From: Solobacterium sp.
GTDB taxonomy: Bacteria; Bacillota_I; Bacilli_A; Erysipelotrichales; Erysipelotrichaceae
Length of the DNA stretch: 13,890 nt
Assembly (NCBI GenBank): GCA_017536845.1
Contig: JAFWCP010000518.1
Coordinates: 1 to 13,890 of the forward strand
Direction: 5' to 3'
Position numbers and translations under genes: made by a program. The notes under the pieces were generated by a model. That model had not been told where the DNA came from. It was given only the letters and a program-made list of their open reading frames with translations, and did no database searches. Below, piece by piece: positions 1,856 to 13,890 of this stretch (positions are counted from its first letter, which is position 1; every line of letters begins with the position of its first letter).

Positions 1856-1884
1856 TTGACATCATGTCAGAATAGATATACCAT
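1856..1884 (+). promoter_or_regulatory. Sigma-A-type promoter of the DUF4405-FGE-flavodoxin gene
   Basis: A perfect -35 box TTGACA (1856-1861) is followed after 17 bp by TACCAT (1879-1884), a 4/6 match to the -10 consensus. TATACC at 1877 is an alternative with a 15-bp spacer. The first operator palindrome overlaps the -35 box and the second begins where transcription should start. The layout is that of a promoter shut off by a repressor. Confidence 0.65.
1857..1869 (+). promoter_or_regulatory. Operator palindrome 1 (TGACAT-C-ATGTCA)
   Basis: This is a perfect 13-bp palindrome, 6+1+6, whose left arm lies inside the -35 hexamer. Its outer TGACA/TGTCA core is the same as in the palindrome centred 36 bp downstream, so both are probably bound by the same dimeric repressor. 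The TetR or MarR family is typical for this layout. No such regulator is encoded in the window. Confidence 0.7.
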
Positions 1885-1890
1885 ACTGTA

Positions 1891-1907
1891 GCTGACACTG
1901 TGTCAGC
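1891..1907 (+). promoter_or_regulatory. Operator palindrome 2 (GCTGACAC-T-GTGTCAGC)
   Basis: This is a perfect 17-bp palindrome, 8+1+8, located at the expected transcription start. It shares the TGACA/TGTCA core with operator 1; the centres are at 1863 and 1899. Because it has no T tract and lies 50 bp before the ribosome site, an operator is a better reading than a terminator. Confidence 0.7.
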
Positions 1908-1957
1908 ATAGCCTGAACAAGACTGGCTATGGAAAAAATCAAAGGAGGAATTTCAGC

Positions 1958-4123
1958 ATGTCCGGATCAGATACTGTTATCAAAAGAGTCATAGACATTC
2001 TCATGACTGCTGTCCTGCTGTGCCTGATGGCGTATCAGGTGACAGGCGAAATGGCACATGAATGGATCGGCATATCCATGACCGTACTGGTCATCATCCA
2101 TCAGATCCTGAACCGCAAGTGGTATGGTGTCCTGTTCAGGGGAAAATACAATCCATACCGGACCGTATCCACCGTATTGAACATCCTGCTTCTGATCTGC
2201 CTGGCCATGACCGCGTTCTGCGGAATGTCCATGAGCAGTTATGCGGTGCCGTTTCTTTACGGCATGGCCCCGGTCGCTTTTGTCCGGATGATGCATCTTG
2301 CGATGTCGCATTGGGCAATCGTCCTGATGGGTCTGCATCTGGGCATGCATATCCCGGCCATGACGGCAGGGCTGAAATGGCAGCCAGAGACCAGGAATGT
2401 TCTCACATGGGTTTTTGCCGGTTTCAGCGGTATCGGCCTGTACCTGTTCTTACGTAACAACATGCCGGATTATATGCTTTTCCGGGTTCTGTTTGCCTTT
2501 ATCGATTATGACAAAGCCAGCTGGCAGGTGTTCCTTGAAAATGTGCTGATGCTGGCATTCCCGGTATTTATCGGGACCCAGACAGCCCATCTCTGCCGGA
2601 ATGCGGCAAAAAGAACTTCCGCTCAGAATCTGCGGCCGGCAGTATCTGTGATCGTCATGGCCATCATCGGCATCCTGCTTCAGATCGTGGTTCCTTCCGG
2701 AAATGGGACATCATATATTGTCAATGATGACTGGTCTTCGACAGCTGATGACATCACCGTCAGTGAAACGGACAATATCAGGCCGACAGAGCATTCAGCT
2801 GCAGAAACGGTGGATGACGGGTTTGTGATGATTCAGGGAGGCTCCTTCCTGATGGGCAGTCCGGAAACGGAAAACTGGCGGATTGATGATGAAATCCGGC
2901 ATGAAGTCAGCGTCTCTTCCTTTTACATGGATCCTTTTGAAACCACACAGGCAGAGTATGTCCGTCTGATGGACGAGAATCCTTCCGCATTTATCTCAGA
3001 TGCTCTTCCGATTGAGAATATCTCCTGGCTGGATGCCGTTCGTTTTGCCAACGCCAAAAGCAAGGATGCATGCCTGACACCGGTCTATATGATCTCAGAT
3101 CAGGGTGTGACGTGGGATCGCTCGGCTGACGGCTATCGGCTTCCGACCGAAGCGGAGTGGGAATATGCCTGCCGTGCCGGTACGGAAACACCGTTCAACA
3201 CCGAGAGGTCCTTAAGCGCGGCTGAAGCGAATTTCTATGGCCATTATCCATATGAAATCGAAGAGAACTATTTCAACAATTCTGTCCTTGAAGCAAAACC
3301 GGGAGAATACCGGCAGACAACGGTTTCCGTCGGCAGCTTTGAACCGAATGCATGGGGCCTCTATGACATGCATGGCAATGTCAACGAATGGTGCTGGGAC
3401 TGGTACGGAACCTACGATACTGCGGCAGCGACGGATCCGACCGGACCGATTCAGGGAACAAGGCATGTCTATCGCGGCGGCGGATGGAATGATTTTGCAA
3501 AAAACATGCGCAGTGCCTACCGTGCGGCCGGGCAGGAAGATATGAAAAGCTTCAATCTCGGCGTGCGTCTTGTCCGCAATGCGGACCACAGTCCATCGGG
3601 ATTGGTGACGGCAGGGGAAACTTCACTGCAGGCAGAAACTGACGGGAAAGTCCTGATTGCCTATTTCTCCTGGGGTGGAAATACAAGGCGGATCGCCGGT
3701 GAAATCCAGACGCAGACAGGCGCTGACATCTTTGAAATCTCGCCCGTGCAGCCGTATTCTTCTGATTACAATACGGTACTGATGGAAGCACAGGAAGACC
3801 AGCACAGACAGGCAAGGCCTGCACTTTCCGGACATGTGGAAAACATGGAGGCGTATGACATCATCCTGCTGGGGTATCCGAACTGGTGGGCATCCATTCC
3901 GATGCCGATTGCTTCTTTCCTTGAGGAATATGATTTTGCCGGGAAAACGATCATTCCGTTCTGTTCCCATGGCGGCGGCCGCTTCGGCCAGAGCCTGACC
4001 GCAGTCGCGAAACTGGCACCGGATGCAGTGATCGGAAAGGGACTTTCCGTCCATTATTCCGGCGGTGCATCCCTGAGCTCAGATGTCACCGCATGGCTGA
4101 TGGAAAACGGCCTGGGCGAGTGA
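1958..4123 (+). CDS. DUF4405-like membrane domain + FGE/SUMF1-like domain + flavodoxin fusion
   Basis: This 721-residue protein has three parts. Residues 8-247 hold about seven helices (12-28, 35-52, 70-90, 112-133, 147-165, 188-208, 228-246). The first four resemble DUF4405, a cytochrome-b561-like fold with histidines H34, H48, H113, H118, H127 and H131 in or beside helices. Residues 288-540 form a formylglycine-generating-enzyme-like (SUMF1/EgtB/PvdO) domain: GGSFLMGS, RLPTEAEWEYACR (394-406), GLYDMHGNVNEW (467-478) and YRGGGW (505-510). It has no cysteine after C479, so the paired FGE catalytic cysteines are absent. Residues 562-719 form a flavodoxin with phosphate loop SWGGNT (571-576) and GYPNWW (639-644). 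Positive charges at the N-terminus and in the loops 53-68 and 214-226 put the N-terminus inside. Seven helices then place both C-terminal domains outside the membrane. The start is set by AAAGGAGG at 1941-1948. The gene stands alone between its promoter and a terminator. A transmembrane electron-transfer role is inference. Confidence 0.88.
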   Translation: MSGSDTVIKRVIDILMTAVLLCLMAYQVTGEMAHEWIGISMTVLVIIHQILNRKWYGVLFRGKYNPYRTVSTVLNILLLICLAMTAFCGMSMSSYAVPFLYGMAPVAFVRMMHLAMSHWAIVLMGLHLGMHIPAMTAGLKWQPETRNVLTWVFAGFSGIGLYLFLRNNMPDYMLFRVLFAFIDYDKASWQVFLENVLMLAFPVFIGTQTAHLCRNAAKRTSAQNLRPAVSVIVMAIIGILLQIVVPSGNGTSYIVNDDWSSTADDITVSETDNIRPTEHSAAETVDDGFVMIQGGSFLMGSPETENWRIDDEIRHEVSVSSFYMDPFETTQAEYVRLMDENPSAFISDALPIENISWLDAVRFANAKSKDACLTPVYMISDQGVTWDRSADGYRLPTEAEWEYACRAGTETPFNTERSLSAAEANFYGHYPYEIEENYFNNSVLEAKPGEYRQTTVSVGSFEPNAWGLYDMHGNVNEWCWDWYGTYDTAAATDPTGPIQGTRHVYRGGGWNDFAKNMRSAYRAAGQEDMKSFNLGVRLVRNADHSPSGLVTAGETSLQAETDGKVLIAYFSWGGNTRRIAGEIQTQTGADIFEISPVQPYSSDYNTVLMEAQEDQHRQARPALSGHVENMEAYDIILLGYPNWWASIPMPIASFLEEYDFAGKTIIPFCSHGGGRFGQSLTAVAKLAPDAVIGKGLSVHYSGGASLSSDVTAWLMENGLGE

Positions 4124-4161: not shown

Positions 4162-4205
4162 AAAAGGCCCGGGAAACAGTCATGTGGCTGCAGCCCGGGT
4201 CTTTT
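4162..4205 (+). terminator. Terminator after the fusion gene
   Basis: AAAAGGCCCGGG (4162-4173) pairs with CCCGGGTCTTTT (4194-4205) through one G-U pair, with a 20-nt loop that can pair further through CAG/CTG. The stem ends in four T on the plus strand and four A on its left flank, so it could also work in the minus direction. It lies 38 bp after the fusion gene stop. Confidence 0.75.
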
Positions 4206-7355: not shown

Positions 7356-7718
7356 ATGTCTGAAATTCAGTTAGGCGTGATTGAAAGCCGTTTTGCGGAT
7401 ATGATCTGGGACAGGGAACCGGTCACTTCAACGGAACTGGTGAAACTGGCGGAAAAGGAATTCTGCTGGAAGCGGACAACAACGCATACAGTCATCAGAC
7501 GACTGTGTGAAAAGGGGCTGTTTATCAATCAGAAAGGAACGGTCACTTCCCTCATGTCACGGGAACAGTTCTATGCCAGGCAGTCAAGACAGTTTGTAAA
7601 AGATTCCTTCGGCGGCTCACTTCCGGCCTTTATTGCCGCTTTTACCAGGGGCGGGGACATCTCTTCTGAAGAAGCCGAAGAAATCCGGAAAATGATCAGT
7701 GAAGCGGAGGAAAAATGA
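7356..7718 (+). CDS. blaI: BlaI/MecI/CopY-family repressor
   Basis: This 120-residue winged-helix repressor begins with the family pattern IESRFADMIWDREPVTSTEL (9-28), followed by a recognition region with KRTTTHTVIRRLCEKGLF (39-56) and a C-terminal dimerisation region from about residue 68. The ribosome site GGGAGG (7345-7350) precedes the ATG by 5 nt. Two operators of the matching type lie directly upstream, so the gene very likely represses itself and its partner. In known systems the partner metalloprotease triggers cleavage and release of the repressor. The stop overlaps the start of the M56 sensor gene (ATGA, 7715-7718). Since no beta-lactamase is nearby, the symbol marks the family and not resistance. 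Confidence 0.9.
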   Translation: MSEIQLGVIESRFADMIWDREPVTSTELVKLAEKEFCWKRTTTHTVIRRLCEKGLFINQKGTVTSLMSREQFYARQSRQFVKDSFGGSLPAFIAAFTRGGDISSEEAEEIRKMISEAEEK

Positions 7719-9850
7719 TGGAAGCTGTCATGATCCGGATCCTGAATATGAGCATTTCTGCCGGCTGGCTGATGCTGGCGGTGATGGCTGCGCGTCTGCT
7801 TCTGAAAAAAGCGCCGCGATGGATCACCGTCATTCTGTGGGGACTGGTCGGCCTGAGGCTTATCATGCCGTTTTCCATCAGCAGTTCATTCAGCCTGATC
7901 CCGGCCTCGCAGGTCATCCGCCCCTCGCTTGTTTACAGCATGCACCCCACGGTCAGCAGCGCGGTGACGGTTATTGACGACACGGTCAGCCCCGTCCTTG
8001 AAACTTCGCTTGCGGCTGATCCTGCCGCAGGCGTAAATCCCATACAGATCTGGCCTGGCGTGCCTGGTGCAGTGTGGCTTGCCGGTATGGCCGTGATGCT
8101 GTCCTATGGCCTGATCAGCCATTTTCGGCTGCGTCGGAAAGTCGCGGAAGCCGCCTTCCTGAAAGAGAACATCTGGCTTTGCGACCGCGTGGAATCGCCG
8201 TTTATTCTCGGTGTATTTCATCCGCAGATTTATCTGCCGTCATATCTGGAAGGACAGGAAAGGAAGTTTGTCCTTGCCCATGAACATGCCCATCTGAAAC
8301 GGGGGGACCATCTCTGGAAGCCGCTGGGCTTTCTGCTGCTTGCCGTATACTGGTTCCACCCGCTTGTCTGGATTTCCTGGATCCTGCTGGGCCGGGATAT
8401 TGAAGCAGCCTGCGACGAAAAGGTCATCAGGGATATGGAAATGGAGGATAAGAAGGCCTACGCCAATGCGCTTGTTTCCTGCAGCCTGCACCATCGGCTG
8501 ATCTTTGCCTTTCCGCTGGCCTTTGGGGAAACAGCTGTAAAGCGGCGAGTCAAAGACATCCTGAATTACCGCAAACCGGCTTTGTGGCTGGGGGTAACAG
8601 CGCTGCTTGCCTGTGCGGCCATTGCCGTATGTTTCCTGAGCGATCCTGAAGATGAAGAGCAGGATCTTTCCTTTCTCAACTATAAAATGGCTGTCTCCCT
8701 GATCGGCCAGAACGGTACGCAATATGCCTTGCACTGTCCTGCCGAAGTCAGCGAGATACAGGTCGGCGCCGTCGATGACTGGGAACTGGTGCGGTATCTG
8801 GAAAACTGCCGCTGGACGAAAAAACGGTTTCCCCCTCAGCAGCCTGCTTCTCCCGGCTCGGTGGAGTTTGTGATTGAAGAGGGGTATCGCATTACGGTTT
8901 ATCAGAAGCCAGTGCTTGCCCGTGTACAGTCTGAAGAAAAGACCAGGTATTACCGGACAGGACCGGACGACTATGAAAAAGCACTGGAATTGTTCCATCC
9001 GGAAAGCCCGTCAGGGATGACAATGTTCAAAGGCAGGGTACTGAATCTCTTTGTCCAGGAAGGAAAGACAGCCGGATTTCTTGCGGAGGTAACAGAAGAC
9101 ACAGCTTCTTTCAAGGCCGGGACACAGGTGACGGTGCCGTATGAAGAAAACAATCCTTCACCTGATCCTGCCGTTGGGGACATGGTTGAAGTGGCCTTCA
9201 CCGGTGAAATCATGGAAACCAGGCCGCTGCAGATTTCAAAGGTCATCTCTGTTCGCGTGCTGCCGGATACAGGTGTTTCCGCTGCACCTTTATCTGACCG
9301 CATTCCCTGCGTGAAAGCCGAGGGGAAACTGTATCTGGACACCGGCAAGGATGCTTCCGGCATGATTCCGCTGACGCCTGATTCCAGCTTTGACGGAGCA
9401 ATTGTATCCGAAGTGGACGGTAGTGAACTGCCGGCTGAAAACGGCCAGTCGAATTTTGGCGCCGGATATGGATACAAGATCATTGACGAGAACAATATCG
9501 CCGTTTACATCAATCAGAAATGGCAGCTGTTTACCGCTGAAGAGCCTGCCTCCGCAAAGGAAAACAGCACTTCTTTCTACCTGACCATCGGGGCTGACGG
9601 GGTGAAATCCATTGAAGTAAAAACGAAGTATATGAGCGGCGGCTGTGAGAATGCGGACGGCTCCCCGTACAGAAAAGGGGAAAGCATCTGGCTGGAACCG
9701 CTGGATGGACTTTCTGACCTTGGCGGTGTGACCGTATCTGCCCTGGATGCAGGCGGGAACGTGATCTGGACAGTGTCTGTCCCAGACGATCAGGGCCTGA
9801 AACGATGGAGCGATGAAGGCTGGGCCATCATGAATACATCTGAAAGATGA
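7715..9850 (+). CDS. BlaR1-like M56 membrane metalloprotease sensor without a penicillin-binding domain
   Basis: The 711-residue protein has helices at about 10-30, 36-54, 112-135, 202-226 and 289-308. Between the third and fourth lies the zinc site H189-E-H-A-H193, with the distal E230/E235 in DIEAACDEKV. This is the M56 (BlaR1/MecR1) peptidase. The part after residue 310 is extracytoplasmic but has no SxxK beta-lactam-binding motif. Instead it shows three segments: about 318-430; a likely OB-fold (DUF3221-like) at 435-515 containing KGRVLNL and DPAVGDMVEVAFTGEI; and a glycine-rich module at 530-606 (IPCVKAEGKLYLDTGK, QSNFGAGYGYK, INQKWQLF). A final beta-rich stretch follows at 619-704. Similar cassettes occur in gut Firmicute M56 sensors. 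The start may be 7715 or 7718, since GGAGG at 7706-7710 suits the latter better. The signal sensed is unknown. It is coupled to blaI and closed by a terminator. Confidence 0.87.
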   Translation: MMEAVMIRILNMSISAGWLMLAVMAARLLLKKAPRWITVILWGLVGLRLIMPFSISSSFSLIPASQVIRPSLVYSMHPTVSSAVTVIDDTVSPVLETSLAADPAAGVNPIQIWPGVPGAVWLAGMAVMLSYGLISHFRLRRKVAEAAFLKENIWLCDRVESPFILGVFHPQIYLPSYLEGQERKFVLAHEHAHLKRGDHLWKPLGFLLLAVYWFHPLVWISWILLGRDIEAACDEKVIRDMEMEDKKAYANALVSCSLHHRLIFAFPLAFGETAVKRRVKDILNYRKPALWLGVTALLACAAIAVCFLSDPEDEEQDLSFLNYKMAVSLIGQNGTQYALHCPAEVSEIQVGAVDDWELVRYLENCRWTKKRFPPQQPASPGSVEFVIEEGYRITVYQKPVLARVQSEEKTRYYRTGPDDYEKALELFHPESPSGMTMFKGRVLNLFVQEGKTAGFLAEVTEDTASFKAGTQVTVPYEENNPSPDPAVGDMVEVAFTGEIMETRPLQISKVISVRVLPDTGVSAAPLSDRIPCVKAEGKLYLDTGKDASGMIPLTPDSSFDGAIVSEVDGSELPAENGQSNFGAGYGYKIIDENNIAVYINQKWQLFTAEEPASAKENSTSFYLTIGADGVKSIEVKTKYMSGGCENADGSPYRKGESIWLEPLDGLSDLGGVTVSALDAGGNVIWTVSVPDDQGLKRWSDEGWAIMNTSER

Positions 9851-9928: not shown

Positions 9929-10816
9929 TTACAGCGGGAAAGCGACCGCTTCCTGATAAAGGTTTTTCAGGATGGCAAGGAATGTCTTCAGGCTTTCCCT
10001 CTGGTCATCCCTGTGCGTGCAGAGCACACAGGAAAAGCTTTCTCTGCAGTCAAACGGAATCCAGGCAAACTGGCCGCTGTGGTCATTCAGGAAACCCGGC
10101 GCCAGGCAGACGCCGCGTCCGGCGGCCACATTTGTCAGCGTCGTATCATGGTCCGCGCTGTTGAAATAATCGATCTTTCCGGAGCTGATCAGCCGGTGCT
10201 GGACGGTCCTGAGCGCTGAGGGAGAACCGCCGCCGACCATCAGTGTCCGGCCATAGAGATCTTCTTCATGCACAAGGTTCTTTTCAGTCAGGGGATCCTC
10301 CTTGTCCGTGATCAGGTAGATGCGGCTTTCAAACAGATCATGGACCTGGATGCCGGCGACCTGCCGTGTCTGTTCCTGCAGGGCAAAAACGACATCCGCC
10401 TCATGGCGCAGGAACAGGTCCATGCTCGAGGCGTAATGAAACAGAGGCGTGACCTGTACGTCCGGCATGGCTGATGCAAACAGGCGCATGGCTTCCGGCA
10501 GGAAATACAGCGACTGGCGGACGGACATGCATACGGAGATACTGTCCCGGTATTTCGCGCTGAAGTTCTGCCCCTGCTCGATAGCCCGTTTGAGATCCTG
10601 CCGCATTCCGGTCAGGAAGGAGACAAACTGGGCACCGGCCGGGGTTAAGGCTGCCCCCTTGCCGCTGCGGTCAAAGATCGTAAAGCCGACCTCTTCCTCA
10701 AGAAGACGGATCTGGTAGGAGAAGGTTGGCTGGCTGACAAACAGGTTTTCCGCTGCCCGGCTGAAATTCAGCGTATGGGCAAGCTCAATGCAGTAATCAA
10801 TCTGTCTGGTATTCAT
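9929..10816 (-). CDS. LysR-family transcriptional regulator
   Basis: This 295-residue regulator has the typical N-terminal winged HTH: MNTRQIDYCIELAHTLNFSR, then AAENLFVSQPTFSYQIRLLE (21-40) and FDRSGKGAALTPAG (48-61). An effector-binding domain follows from about residue 90. The start at 10816 is chosen because AGGGAG stands 7 nt before it on the minus strand; a start 33 nt earlier has no such site and would run into the operator. The gene is divergent from the flavodoxin operon and shares with it a symmetrical operator at 10844-10887. It is therefore the probable activator or repressor of that operon and its own autoregulator. The effector is unknown; an electrophile or redox signal fits the target genes but is inference. 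Confidence 0.92.
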   Translation of the reverse strand: MNTRQIDYCIELAHTLNFSRAAENLFVSQPTFSYQIRLLEEEVGFTIFDRSGKGAALTPAGAQFVSFLTGMRQDLKRAIEQGQNFSAKYRDSISVCMSVRQSLYFLPEAMRLFASAMPDVQVTPLFHYASSMDLFLRHEADVVFALQEQTRQVAGIQVHDLFESRIYLITDKEDPLTEKNLVHEEDLYGRTLMVGGGSPSALRTVQHRLISSGKIDYFNSADHDTTLTNVAAGRGVCLAPGFLNDHSGQFAWIPFDCRESFSCVLCTHRDDQRESLKTFLAILKNLYQEAVAFPL

Positions 10817-10843
10817 TTTTCGCTCCCTGCTATTTAAAAATTC

Positions 10844-10887
10844 AATCAATTATAGCGTCTTTCAATTGGATTCGGCAATAATTGATT
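10844..10887. promoter_or_regulatory. Nested symmetrical operator between lysR and the flavodoxin operon
   Basis: AATCAATTAT (10844-10853) and ATAATTGATT (10878-10887) form a perfect 10-bp inverted repeat. Midway sits the palindrome CAATTG (10863-10868), and all share the axis at 10865.5. AATTG-type half-sites thus occur at the outer and central positions. LysR tetramers contact two spaced palindromic sites near divergent promoters, which suits this region. Confidence 0.65.
10849..10854 (-). promoter_or_regulatory. -10 box of the lysR promoter
   Basis: On the minus strand this is a perfect TATAAT, 33 nt before the lysR start. It lies inside the left arm of the operator, which suggests autorepression. 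No good -35 box was found. Confidence 0.5.
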
Positions 10888-10889
10888 CC

Positions 10890-10895
10890 TATAAT
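10890..10895 (+). promoter_or_regulatory. -10 box of the flavodoxin operon promoter
   Basis: This is a perfect TATAAT, 33 nt before the start of the flavodoxin gene and immediately right of the operator arm. The best -35 candidate, TTGGAT (10866-10871, 18-bp spacer), matches only three positions. A good -10 with a poor -35 box is typical of promoters that need an activator such as LysR. Confidence 0.6.
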
Positions 10896-10928
10896 AATCA
10901 CGGATCAAGACAACAGGAGGTTAAGGAT

Positions 10929-11450
10929 ATGAGTAAAACACTGATCGCATTCTTCTCAAGGGCGGATGAAAACTACTTCGGCGGCGCCATGCGCTATGTC
11001 AAGGTCGGCAATACGGAAATCGTCTGCGGCATCATCAATGAACTGATCAATGCCGACAGCTTCAGAATCGAGATGAAGAATCCGTATTCTCCGGTCTATA
11101 TGACCTGTATTGAGGAAGCCAAAAAGGATCTGCGCACAAAGGCAAGGCCCGAACTTGTTTCCCTGCCTGAAAATATTGATGCATATGATACGGTCATTCT
11201 GGCCTATCCGAATTACTGGGGCACCATGCCGATGGCAGTCTTAACCTTCCTGGAAGCGTTCGACTTCAGCGGCAAGACAATCCTGCCGCTTTGCACAAAC
11301 GAAGGCAGCGGCATGGGAAACAGTAAACGCGATATCAGAAAGGCCTGCCCGGGTGCGCAGGTCAGAAGCGGCCTTTCCGTCACCGGCAGCGAAGCGGCCT
11401 ATGCGAAAGAAGATGTGCAGGCATGGCTCTCCGCGAGCGGCCTGCTGTAA
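10929..11450 (+). CDS. Flavodoxin (flavodoxin_4-like), cytosolic
   Basis: This 173-residue protein has the flavodoxin fold: strand LIAFFSR (5-11), phosphate-binding VGNTEIV (26-32) after an insertion of about 14 residues typical of this subfamily, ILAYPNYWGTMPM (90-102) for the FMN ring region, and GKTILPLCTNEGSGMG (115-130). There is no signal peptide. AGGAGG (10915-10920) stands 8 nt before the ATG at 10929 and fixes the start. It is the first gene of the LysR-controlled operon, and the acetyltransferase follows after 12 bp. Members of this group bind FMN and are reported as quinone- or electron-carrying flavoproteins; the partner here is unknown. It is related to the flavodoxin domains of the fusion protein (1958-4123) and of the lipoprotein at 13527. 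Confidence 0.9.
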   Translation: MSKTLIAFFSRADENYFGGAMRYVKVGNTEIVCGIINELINADSFRIEMKNPYSPVYMTCIEEAKKDLRTKARPELVSLPENIDAYDTVILAYPNYWGTMPMAVLTFLEAFDFSGKTILPLCTNEGSGMGNSKRDIRKACPGAQVRSGLSVTGSEAAYAKEDVQAWLSASGLL

Positions 11451-11462
11451 GGGGAGGAAATC

Positions 11463-12023
11463 ATGAACGTATTTGAAAAACTGAAAAACGGTGTACCTGT
11501 CCACATGCGGTCGGAAGAATACCGTCCGGTCATTGCCGAGCTGCACCGGGCAGACAAGGCACTGTTTCATTTAAACCATGCCGAACCGCAGTCTGAAGAA
11601 CAGAAGAAGGCATTTGAAGAACTCTTTGACGGATCGATACCGGAAGGCCTGGGCATCTTTACGCCGACCCAGATTGATTTCCCGAAACAGATCACCTTCG
11701 GAAAGCATGTGTTTATCAACCACAGCTTTACGGCGATGTCGATCGGCGGCATCGAATTCGGCGACAATGTCCAGATCGGGCCGCATGTCACGATTGTGAC
11801 GGACAATCACGATCTCAAAGACCGTTATGTGCTGAACTGCCGTAAGGTTGTCATTGGCAATAACGTCTGGATCGGTGCTTCCGCCAGCATCATGCCGGGC
11901 GTGCATGTCGGCGACAATGCCGTCATAGCCGGCGGGGCGGTTGTGACCAAGGATGTGCCGGCCGATACGATCGTCGGCGGCAATCCGGCAAAGGTGATCC
12001 GGAAGATTGAGGCAGTCGCATGA
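11463..12023 (+). CDS. Hexapeptide-repeat O-acetyltransferase (maltose/galactoside acetyltransferase type)
   Basis: This 186-residue protein has an N-terminal helical region of the Mac type and then a left-handed beta helix built of hexapeptide turns from about residue 64 to 178 ([47 protein letters not shown]). The catalytic histidine is H116 in [10 protein letters not shown]. It ends with the family signature [11 protein letters not shown] (172-182). It would transfer acetyl from acetyl-CoA to a hydroxyl of a sugar or similar acceptor. GGGGAGG (11451-11457) precedes the start by 5 nt. Its stop overlaps the lipoprotein start (ATGA, 12020-12023). Its presence in a redox operon is not explained by any obvious pathway. 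Acetylation of a toxic or stress-linked metabolite is one possibility. Confidence 0.92.
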
Positions 12024-12550
12024 GGAAGGCAGCGCTGTCATTTGCAGTGATGCTCCTGCTGGCATCCTGCGGGAGGGCTGGCCGGATGGACGACACTTCA
12101 GGGGCTGAAAACAGGAAAGGAGAAGACAGCATGTACGGTTATGACCTGACGGGGTTTTCAAATGTAACGATCACCGGGATTGATGTTTCTTCTTTGAATG
12201 AGGAAGAAACGGCGCTCCTGTCTGCCCAGGCAAGATACTGCCAGGCAATGACCGAGGCGGATGTTGATGCCATGCGGCAGCTGGTTTGCGAAGATATGGT
12301 CTATGTCCATATGAGCGGCATGCGCCAGACCAGGGAAGAATACTTCGCGGACATTGCCCACGGCAGCCTGCGCTATTTCACCATCGGCATTGAAGACCCG
12401 GTCATTGCGGTGGATGGAGAGAAGGGATCGATCACCTGTACATCCGTTCTCAATGCCGATGCCTATGGGGCAAGAGGTACCTTCCGCATGAAGGGGACGC
12501 ATCACTATGAGAAGCGTGACGGCAGCTGGATCGCCGTCAACGCGTCATAA
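12020..12550 (+). CDS. NTF2-like (SnoaL/DUF4440-type) protein with lipoprotein signal
   Basis: The 176-residue protein starts with a lipoprotein signal: basic MRK, hydrophobic [11 protein letters not shown] and lipobox LASC with Cys17. After a polar linker, an NTF2-like cone fold spans about residues 50-175, with [20 protein letters not shown] (69-88), MVYVHMSG (92-99) and a final strand [18 protein letters not shown]. Proteins of this fold are ketosteroid-isomerase-like enzymes or ligand-binding proteins; H97 and the HH pair near residue 160 are candidate functional residues. The start overlaps the upstream stop (ATGA). An in-frame ATG at 12131 (M38) has the strong ribosome site AAAGGAGA at 12116-12123. 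A cytosolic short form from the same gene, or a mis-set start, must therefore be considered. It belongs to the LysR-linked operon. Confidence 0.85.
12116..12133 (+). promoter_or_regulatory. Internal ribosome site and alternative ATG in the NTF2-like gene
   Basis: AAAGGAGA (12116-12123) stands 8 nt before an in-frame ATG at 12131 inside the lipoprotein gene. It is stronger than anything before the outer start at 12020, which relies on the ATGA overlap. Translation from here would give a 139-residue protein without a signal peptide. Confidence 0.5.
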
Positions 12551-12561
12551 GGAGGAACAGG

Positions 12562-13524
12562 ATGAAAACAAGACTGCTGAAGGATATTGAAGTCAGTGAA
12601 GTTGGCATGGGATGCATGGCCTTTTCCCATGGCTATGGAAGAATCTCGGAAGAACAGTACAGCATCGAAGCAATCAGGAATGCTTTTGACCATGGCTGTA
12701 CCTTCTTTGATACGGCTGAAGTCTACAGCCCGAACCTTTCCGGCATCGGCCACAATGAGCTGATCGTCGGCAAGGCCCTGAAAGATGTCAGGGACAATGC
12801 CGTCATCGCCACCAAGCTGATGCTGCATGGGTCTGGATCCGGGAATGTATATCAGACAATCCGGAAACATCTGGAAGGATCACTGGAAAGGCTGCAGACC
12901 GATTATGTGGATCTCTATTACCTGCACCGCATGAGCAGTGTGCCGGTTGAAAAGGTTGCGCAGGCCATGGGCAGGCTGGTCGATGAAGGCCTGATCCGCG
13001 GCTGGGGCCTTTCCCAGGTGGATGTGGATGTCATCGAGAGAGCCCAGCGTGTCACCCCGTTGTCTGCCATCCAGAACATCTATTCCATGGTGGAACGGGA
13101 TTCGGAAGAAAAGATTATCCCTTACTGCATGGAACACAATATCGGCTTTGTGCCGTTCTCGCCGATCGCCAGCGGCCTGCTGTCCGGCAGGATTACGCCG
13201 CAGACGCAGTTTGAAAGGAATGATGATGTACGCAACTGGGTGCCCCAGCTTTCCCGAAGGAACATTGAAGGAAACCAACCCATCGTCGAAATGCTGAGGG
13301 AGTTTGCGGAAAAGGAACAGGCCACGCCGGCCCAGATCAGCCTGGCCTGGATGCTTCACGAATACCCGAACGTGGTTCCGATCCCGGGATCCAAAAACAA
13401 GGAAAGGATCCTGGAGAACCTGGCTGCCGCCGATGTCGTGTTGACCGATGAGGAAGCTGCAGCTCTGGAAAAGGAACTGAACAGTCACAGAGTTTTCGGC
13501 CATCGTGGCCTGGGAGGATTCTGA
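12562..13524 (+). CDS. Aldo/keto reductase
   Basis: This 320-residue TIM-barrel NADPH-dependent oxidoreductase has the full catalytic tetrad: D50 and Y55 in FFDTAEVYSP, K85 in IATKLML and H122 in YYLHRMS. The cofactor region GFVPFSPIASGLLSG (195-209) and the IPGSKNKERILENL motif (274-287) are also present. Length is normal. AAGGAGG (12549-12555) precedes the start by 6 nt. Such enzymes reduce aldehydes, ketones or quinones in the cytosol, and the exact substrate cannot be read. The tight spacing, 11 bp after the NTF2-like gene and 2 bp before the lipoprotein flavodoxin, shows shared transcription. Together with flavodoxins and a LysR regulator it suggests carbonyl or quinone stress. Confidence 0.93.
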   Translation: MKTRLLKDIEVSEVGMGCMAFSHGYGRISEEQYSIEAIRNAFDHGCTFFDTAEVYSPNLSGIGHNELIVGKALKDVRDNAVIATKLMLHGSGSGNVYQTIRKHLEGSLERLQTDYVDLYYLHRMSSVPVEKVAQAMGRLVDEGLIRGWGLSQVDVDVIERAQRVTPLSAIQNIYSMVERDSEEKIIPYCMEHNIGFVPFSPIASGLLSGRITPQTQFERNDDVRNWVPQLSRRNIEGNQPIVEMLREFAEKEQATPAQISLAWMLHEYPNVVPIPGSKNKERILENLAAADVVLTDEEAAALEKELNSHRVFGHRGLGGF

Positions 13525-13526
13525 TC

Positions 13527-13890
13527 ATGAAAACGAAGATGAAAAAACTGTCCTGCCTGCTGTTTGCCGGCATGCTTATGACGAATACCGGATGCAGCAG
13601 CCGGGAAAGTGCGGCTTCTTTGCAGGAAGCGGAAAACAGCAGTCTGCAGTCTGATGCAAGGCCTGACGCAGAAACAGCAGACAGCCTGAGCGAGCAGACG
13701 GAAGAAACATCTGATGCATCTGAAACAAAGGCTTCCGACATCCTGGTTGTATACTTTTCCCGTACCGTCGAGCAGTATACGGTCGGCGTGATCGACAAGG
13801 GCAATACGGCCATCGTCGCGGAAATGATTGCGGAAAGAACCGGTGCGGACCTCTTTGAAATCCTGCCGGCGGATGACCATTACCCGACGA
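13527..13890 (+). CDS. Lipoprotein flavodoxin, 3' end outside window
   Basis: The frame runs open from the ATG at 13527 to the window edge (121 codons). It starts with a lipoprotein signal, MKTKMKKLSCLLFAGMLM, followed by lipobox NTGC with Cys23. Then comes an acidic, Ser/Glu-rich linker of about 48 residues (24-71). The flavodoxin domain begins at about residue 73 with DILVVYFSRTVEQY, then DKGNTAIVAEMIAERTGAD (phosphate loop GNT, about 95-97), and is cut at DDHYPT. The domain is of the same subfamily as the cytosolic flavodoxin at the head of the operon. The ribosome site is GGGAGG (13512-13517), inside the end of the aldo/keto reductase gene, whose stop is 2 bp before this start. The protein should be tethered outside the membrane, an unusual place for a flavodoxin. 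Confidence 0.88.
   Translation, partial: MKTKMKKLSCLLFAGMLMTNTGCSSRESAASLQEAENSSLQSDARPDAETADSLSEQTEETSDASETKASDILVVYFSRTVEQYTVGVIDKGNTAIVAEMIAERTGADLFEILPADDHYPT

Follow-up and report, generated by a model that had tools for sequence, protein, structure and literature searches.

What would a bacterium do with a single chain that joins a histidine-rich membrane bundle to a domain resembling the formylglycine-generating enzyme (FGE) and to a flavodoxin? This question is raised by a stretch of DNA from Solobacterium sp. (13,890 nucleotides, hereafter the window), in which a single open frame spans exactly positions 1958..4123 of the plus strand. The open reading frame (ORF) list and the homologues mark it as one gene of 721 codons, encoding a protein of 721 amino acids. 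On balance, we favor the view that this fusion carries electrons outward across the membrane, that its expression is inducible and that its working part lies on the outside; our confidence in any particular target of the carrier is much lower.

The preliminary description of this locus had proposed a three-part fusion in one frame, with a DUF4405-type module at residues 8-135. Pfam recovered all three domains in the window protein: FGE-sulfatase (PF03781) at residues 288-540 (E = 7e-47), Flavodoxin_4 (PF12682) at residues 564-699 (E = 1.3e-29, 103.1 bits) and DUF4405 (PF14358, a model of 66 positions) at residues 73-131, the last scoring 26.9 bits where 26.7 are required, a margin of 0.2 bits. 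These matches and the recurrence of the fusion in homologues bear out the proposed architecture, and the module had been correctly named. In a search of 5.8 billion proteins, 6827 of the 7998 scored candidates matched, and the best 120 of the 6827 were listed. Both PF03781 and PF12682 were present in all 120 (the window's own protein included), and PF14358 was additionally recorded in eight of them according to a precomputed column. The other 119 listed matches showed 61-81% identity to the window protein; query coverage was 92-100% in 117 of them and only 64-65%, in one piece, in P0005 and P0020. A relative was encoded in 332 of the 338 candidate stretches drawn from a genome collection, and the best 80 (L001-L080) are the loci referred to below. 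An intact full-length fusion was found by our own filter in 69 of the 80, and loci in which the best ORF covered just part of the fusion (such as L001, L024, L029, L041, L059, L064 and L073) were left unchanged. An assembly error was rejected, since all 119 other listed homologues keep both soluble domains and the 69 loci keep the fusion intact. The preliminary description would have read homologues with separate domain genes as a sign of such an error; split genes do exist in Klebsiella and partly in Citrobacter and Microvirga plasmids (31-36% identity), but the fusion itself recurs.

By their titles, the 80 loci are mostly metagenome-assembled genomes of Clostridia, Lachnospiraceae, Ruminococcus or Erysipelotrichaceae, many of them ruminant-derived. 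A few are titled otherwise (Flexilinea, Anaerolineaceae, planctomycete), and the isolates include Ruminococcus flavefaciens, Sarcina and Hungatella. The full fusion was present in two of 398 genomes evenly sampled from the phylum of R. flavefaciens, one of the two being the centre of the sample. Together with the recurrence in homologues and loci, this indicates that the architecture is real but not common, and the fusion is a protein of rumen and gut bacteria.

The membrane module occupies residues 1-246 (1958..2695, plus strand, as for all the domains described here) and is assigned from Pfam, alignments and models. Conservation was assessed in an alignment of 78 sequences, A1, which contains the window protein, 64 of the 69 filtered loci and 13 of the 119 homologues, and to which the counts out of 78 refer; a second alignment, A2, contains the window protein and 43 of the 69 filtered loci. 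We observed that H34, H48, H113, H127 and H131 are invariant in 78/78. The AlphaFold model of the module alone has seven helices with a predicted local distance difference test score (pLDDT) of 93.1 and a predicted template modelling score (pTM) of 0.89, and the same helices appear in the full-length model (mean pLDDT 79.0, pTM 0.57). Residues 34/48 and 113/127 are each 14 residues apart and lie on the second and fourth long helices. Pairs spaced in this manner hold two haems stacked across the membrane in b-type cytochromes. From this spacing and the helix positions, the haem ligands are most likely H34/H113 on the outer side and H48/H127 on the inner side. The mean number of lysines and arginines per loop, with loop limits taken from the model, was 2.1/0.0/3.8/0.4/3.4/1.7/4.8 in the 78 sequences. 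This alternation of basic loops, together with the seven helices, places the N-terminus inside and the C-terminus outside, so that both soluble domains are predicted to face the outside of the cell.

DUF4405 proteins have been described as six-helix bundles with four central histidines, and a purified member gave haem-b spectra (Huang, Meheust, Barquera and Light 2024; PMC11334425). The fusion exceeds the Pfam cut-off of the family, to which the fused relative in L060 also matches with 32.0 bits, and its bundle has the four conserved central histidines, with seven predicted helices versus the published six. The preliminary claim of haem-type helices is supported by the invariant histidines and by the haem b of another DUF4405 protein (PMC11334425). 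A structure search of the membrane module against solved structures gave no significant match; its top rows, which include haem A synthase, hydrogenase cytochrome b and STEAP, are below a meaningful level. The genome of L060 (G003:C4) also contains a stand-alone DUF4405 frame of 241 amino acids at 96733, about 9 kb upstream of its fusion (105557).

An acidic linker (residues 249-282, 2702..2803), probably disordered according to its pLDDT below 50 and the alignment, connects the module to the FGE-like domain (residues 288-540, 2819..3577). Pfam, the alignment and the structure comparison agree that this domain has the FGE-like fold; it lacks the FGE cysteine pair. Human C336 and C341, which we take to be the catalytic pair of FGE, are named in entry titles, and their expected place was inferred by counting back from the aligned end (370/543): no cysteine occurs in residues 500-530 in any of the 78 aligned sequences. 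The other cysteines of the domain are C405 (77/78) and C479 (62/78). With the pair missing in 78/78, a catalytic FGE was rejected as an assignment, and judged by its residues the domain is not one. The PvdO equivalog model gave 72.1 bits, well short of its cut-off of 500.

The C-terminal flavodoxin domain covers residues 564-699 by Pfam (3647..4054) and about 562-720 by structure. Its FMN (flavin mononucleotide) loop, SWGGNT, keeps the phosphate-binding S571, N575 and T576 in 78/78, in keeping with its Flavodoxin_4 match, and the best sequence match of this part is 3klb, titled as an FMN complex. The invariance of the loop supports an FMN-type flavodoxin, as the preliminary description had it. 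In contrast to the flavinylated members of the family, the domain has no insert between strand 1 and helix 1, where 78/78 sequences have a 16-residue segment, and the ApbE motif was found in 0/78 aligned sequences and 0/120 of the matches listed; it does not belong among the flavinylated Flavodoxin_4 proteins. From these sequence features, we infer that FMN would be held non-covalently in the fusion. Covalent attachment by ApbE has been proposed to prevent the loss of flavin outside the cell (PMC11334425). ApbE is present somewhere in 37 of 40 genomes, and apbE and the fusion are on different contigs in the four genomes in which both were placed (G001-G004). ApbE was not among the recurrent named neighbours of the fusion, the loci not having been scanned gene by gene for it. 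Of the 87 flavodoxin genes counted in the 80 loci, three have an ApbE-like motif (L032, L039 and L079, the last within a linker), and a looser pattern matched L028, also in a linker. The genes at L032:6481-7254 and L039:3514-4287 encode secreted flavodoxins with the motif (DAVSAAT and DAVSAST, respectively) right behind the signal peptide.

A further flavodoxin accompanies the fusion in most relatives, and its predicted export, like that of the related proteins described next, speaks for an external location of the soluble domains. In 67 of the 80 loci, a flavodoxin ORF ends less than 200 nucleotides upstream of the fusion; in 55 of these proteins, a hydrophobic stretch precedes a lipobox, eight have a hydrophobic N-terminal stretch only and four have neither (the start is short in L015, and the ORFs of L021, L064 and L072 seem truncated by a contig end or affected by masked bases). 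Among homologues of one upstream flavodoxin, the lipobox pattern was found in 112/120 and the ApbE-like motif in 0/120. A cruder pattern applied to every flavodoxin gene of the cluster (87 from the loci plus the one of the window) gave 50 with a lipobox, 21 with another N-terminal extension and 17 with short N-termini. Other arrangements also occur: in a protein of L019, an Ig-like Big_2 domain lies between a signal-like start and a flavodoxin, and L020:1596-3653 encodes a secreted flavodoxin-FGE-flavodoxin protein with no membrane module, to which the product of L029:4899-6959 is similar by blastp and by its start. A dockerin-like stretch was noticed by eye behind the signal in the L020 and L029 proteins; Pfam reported Dockerin_1 only for the L032 gene at 6481 (E = 0.0038), and this match fell short of the cut-off.

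The plasmids of Klebsiella and Citrobacter encode flavodoxin, DUF4405, cupin and CMD in adjacent but separate genes; in the Klebsiella plasmid, genes for another flavodoxin and an FGE-like protein come next. Inspected by eye, the Klebsiella cupin, CMD and FGE proteins have signal-like starts, as does the FGE protein of Microvirga, and the flavodoxin adjoining FGE has a twin-arginine-like start in both Klebsiella and Microvirga. The flavodoxin-FGE pair thus recurs, apparently exported, in distant bacteria. The Klebsiella flavodoxin beside DUF4405 (L081:5308-5919) carries an ApbE-like DGFSGAS near its N-terminus, which is the place of the flavinylated insert according to PMC11334425. As for regulation, a link with HprRS, which would have suggested chlorine stress, was not supported for the two-component system of Klebsiella, its kinase showing 40% identity to CusS versus 30% to HprS; its response regulator is about equally near to CusR (53%) and HprR (51%).

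An inducible character of the proposed carrier is suggested by the region upstream of the genes. The palindrome pair TGACAYNRTGTCA was found in 48 of the 80 loci, and some site in 56, whereas three simulated sets contained none; among the 32 loci that lack the pair, 15 have less than 2.4 kb upstream of the fusion and 17 have more. Restricting the spacing to 30-40 leaves 49 pairs, spread over 47 loci and the window (48 sources) and without exception upstream of the fusion. The first palindrome reads TTGACA in 49/49 pairs, and 17 bp further on, 26 of the 49 have TATAAT (17) or TATACT (9). The first recognised gene after the pair encodes TetR in 22 cases, a flavin reductase in nine, a flavodoxin in four, an aldo/keto reductase (AKR) in two, the fusion in two (the window and L068) and an amidohydrolase in one; none was recognised in the remaining nine. 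In eight whole genomes, the pair occurs once in five, twice in one and not at all in two (L057 and L060), and the reversed pattern gave no match. From its position and from TetR being first after 22 of the 49 pairs, we consider it very likely that a TetR protein acts on this operator pair.

In the window, operator 1, the palindrome TGACATCATGTCA (1857..1869), overlaps the predicted −35 box TTGACA (1856-1861); the predicted −10 box, TACCAT (1879..1884, plus strand), lies 17 bp from it, with 10/12 consensus matches for the promoter, and operator 2, TGACACTGTGTCA (1893..1905), starts 36 bp from operator 1 and 65 bp before the ATG. The promoter scan alone carries no weight, as it returned three promoter-like sites versus 3.0 expected. 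When one mismatch was allowed, two operator matches occurred in 0/200 shuffles of the window. These twin palindromes around the predicted promoter suggest that the window gene, although it stands alone, belongs to the same regulon. No TetR gene was seen in the window, either in the ORF list or in domain scans, so the regulator would have to lie elsewhere. A ribosome-binding site (AGGAGG, 1943..1948, plus strand) was read ahead of the start. Downstream, a GC-rich inverted repeat with a long loop followed by TCTTTT was noticed by eye (4163..4205, plus strand), and a terminator scan with a loop limit of 8 gave no match at the end of the fusion; if this possible terminator is real, the fusion is a single-gene transcript.

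Neighbour genes were counted over 85 sources (the 80 loci, four plasmid regions and the window), and each family was named from one Pfam-scanned member. The recurrent ones are AKR (43), TetR (41), CMD, in part CMD-cupin (28), and FMN_red (27), followed by a DUF362 lipoprotein (19), flavin reductase (19), an ArsP permease (18), an amidohydrolase (9) and a cluster of ABC-type ATP-binding proteins (9). Several clusters of antisense ORFs are probably artefacts of ORF calling. The genes for the DUF362 lipoprotein and the ArsP-type permease are adjacent at L060:5681-7706. As a guide to function, the operon of the relatives and the twin operator are more informative than the fusion alone.

Taken together, these observations support transmembrane electron transfer, which the preliminary description had suggested, as the likeliest role. 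The N-terminal module would be a two-haem, b-type cytochrome of the DUF4405 family with seven helices, receiving electrons from a membrane or cytosolic donor, either menaquinol or a flavin reduced by the flavin reductase that some related operons encode. It would pass them to non-covalent FMN in the external flavodoxin domain, which, with the separate, mostly lipoprotein-type upstream flavodoxin of most relatives (not of the window), could reduce a target. This target would be bound at or near the FGE-like domain, acting as a binding or docking module rather than as a formylglycine-generating enzyme. Since carbonyl reductases and a CMD-cupin protein are encoded in related operons, the target is probably a damaged protein of the cell surface or a compound that is oxidised or electrophilic, and the task would be a reducing, protective one. 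Expression would very likely be controlled by a TetR repressor that, bound to the two palindromes, closes the promoter whose −35 box sits inside the first.

The direction of flow is where this outward carrier is most open to challenge. The external domains may instead oxidise a substrate, and the cytochrome feed the quinone pool inward in the manner of a respiratory dehydrogenase; the low potential of flavodoxins favors this direction and weighs against ours, but the recurrent neighbours are mostly of a reducing type (AKR, flavin reductase, FMN_red), and we regard inward flow as unlikely. It is more doubtful still that the protein is a sensor, in which the FGE-like domain binds a ligand, the flavodoxin and cytochrome report the redox state and electron transfer serves signalling only, since the Pfam scan revealed no cytosolic output domain and the operon already has a recurrent regulator of the TetR type.

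An inverted topology, in which the C-terminal domains would be cytosolic and form an ordinary flavodoxin on a membrane anchor, could appeal to the 17/88 flavodoxins of the same loci that have short N-termini without a signal; the loop charges in 78 sequences, the seven helices and the export of the split relatives make it very improbable. We give equally little credence to a flavodoxin domain that uses haem or some other cofactor in place of FMN, in a protein that handles haem or iron. The idea of a genuine formylglycine-generating enzyme that carries its reductant supply in the same chain has the strength of the PF03781 match behind it, but the region where its cysteines should lie is devoid of them throughout the alignment, and we consider it the least credible of all.

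The outward carrier has a close parallel in the systems of PMC11334425, in which haem-b DUF4405 cytochromes are paired with extracytosolic flavinylated Flavodoxin_4 proteins. There, the genes are found in apbE clusters and the ApbE site lies in a flavodoxin insert between strand 1 and helix 1, whereas here the two modules are in one fused chain, with the FGE-like domain between them and no insert; the main text of that paper makes no mention of FGE. The fusion is expected to work like these published pairs, and by its features it belongs to both domain families. The Klebsiella/Citrobacter plasmid cluster has the same parts along with CMD and cupin, signal-like or membrane-type starts by eye and, in Klebsiella, AKR genes; it differs in having separate genes, one flavodoxin with an ApbE-like motif, a twin-arginine-like flavodoxin on the FGE side, and a two-component system with no TetR within the stretch examined. 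The missing cysteine pair sets the fusion apart from FGE/SUMF1, and its low score with the PvdO model and its membrane and flavodoxin modules set it apart from PvdO (5hha). In MsrPQ, a membrane cytochrome likewise supplies an external reductase, and PMC11334425 compares the DUF4405 and MsrQ structures; however, the external part here is a flavodoxin, and MsrQ gave no meaningful blastp match to the module of the fusion. The open-access literature searched, as far as its text is accessible, yielded no description of the fusion. The preliminary description had called the system undescribed, which is only partly true because DUF4405 cytochrome/Flavodoxin_4 pairs were published in 2024; what is added here is the fusion, its FGE-like partner, the putatively non-covalent flavodoxin and the operator.

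Elsewhere in the window, positions 9929-13889 hold a second flavodoxin/AKR cluster that lacks the twin palindromes. In it, a LysR gene on the minus strand diverges from a flavodoxin gene (10866), which is followed by genes for a hexapeptide acetyltransferase, a DUF4440/SnoaL protein and an aldo/keto reductase; a flavodoxin-like protein with a lipobox (13527) runs off the window. At 7356-9850, a BlaI-type repressor gene (PF03965) adjoins a gene for an M56 BlaR1-type membrane peptidase.

More tentatively, these proteins may represent a class of extracytoplasmic flavodoxin redox systems without covalent flavin, in which non-covalent FMN on lipoprotein, secreted and membrane-fused flavodoxins would form an electron relay outside monoderm cells. 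The fused DUF4405 cytochrome would drive this relay, the FGE-like docking domain would aim it, and the TetR switch would induce it on electrophiles or plant-derived oxidants, while some Ruminococcus would secrete a flavodoxin-FGE-flavodoxin body, free of the membrane module, on a dockerin-like tag. If this is true, exported flavodoxins that lack the ApbE site, are attached to a membrane cytochrome and have a promoter switch of their own would make the retention and function of FMN outside the cell directly testable, for which an isolate genome is available (Ruminococcus flavefaciens 007c, L032), and would place a cytochrome family that was recognised only recently in a context rich in functional clues.
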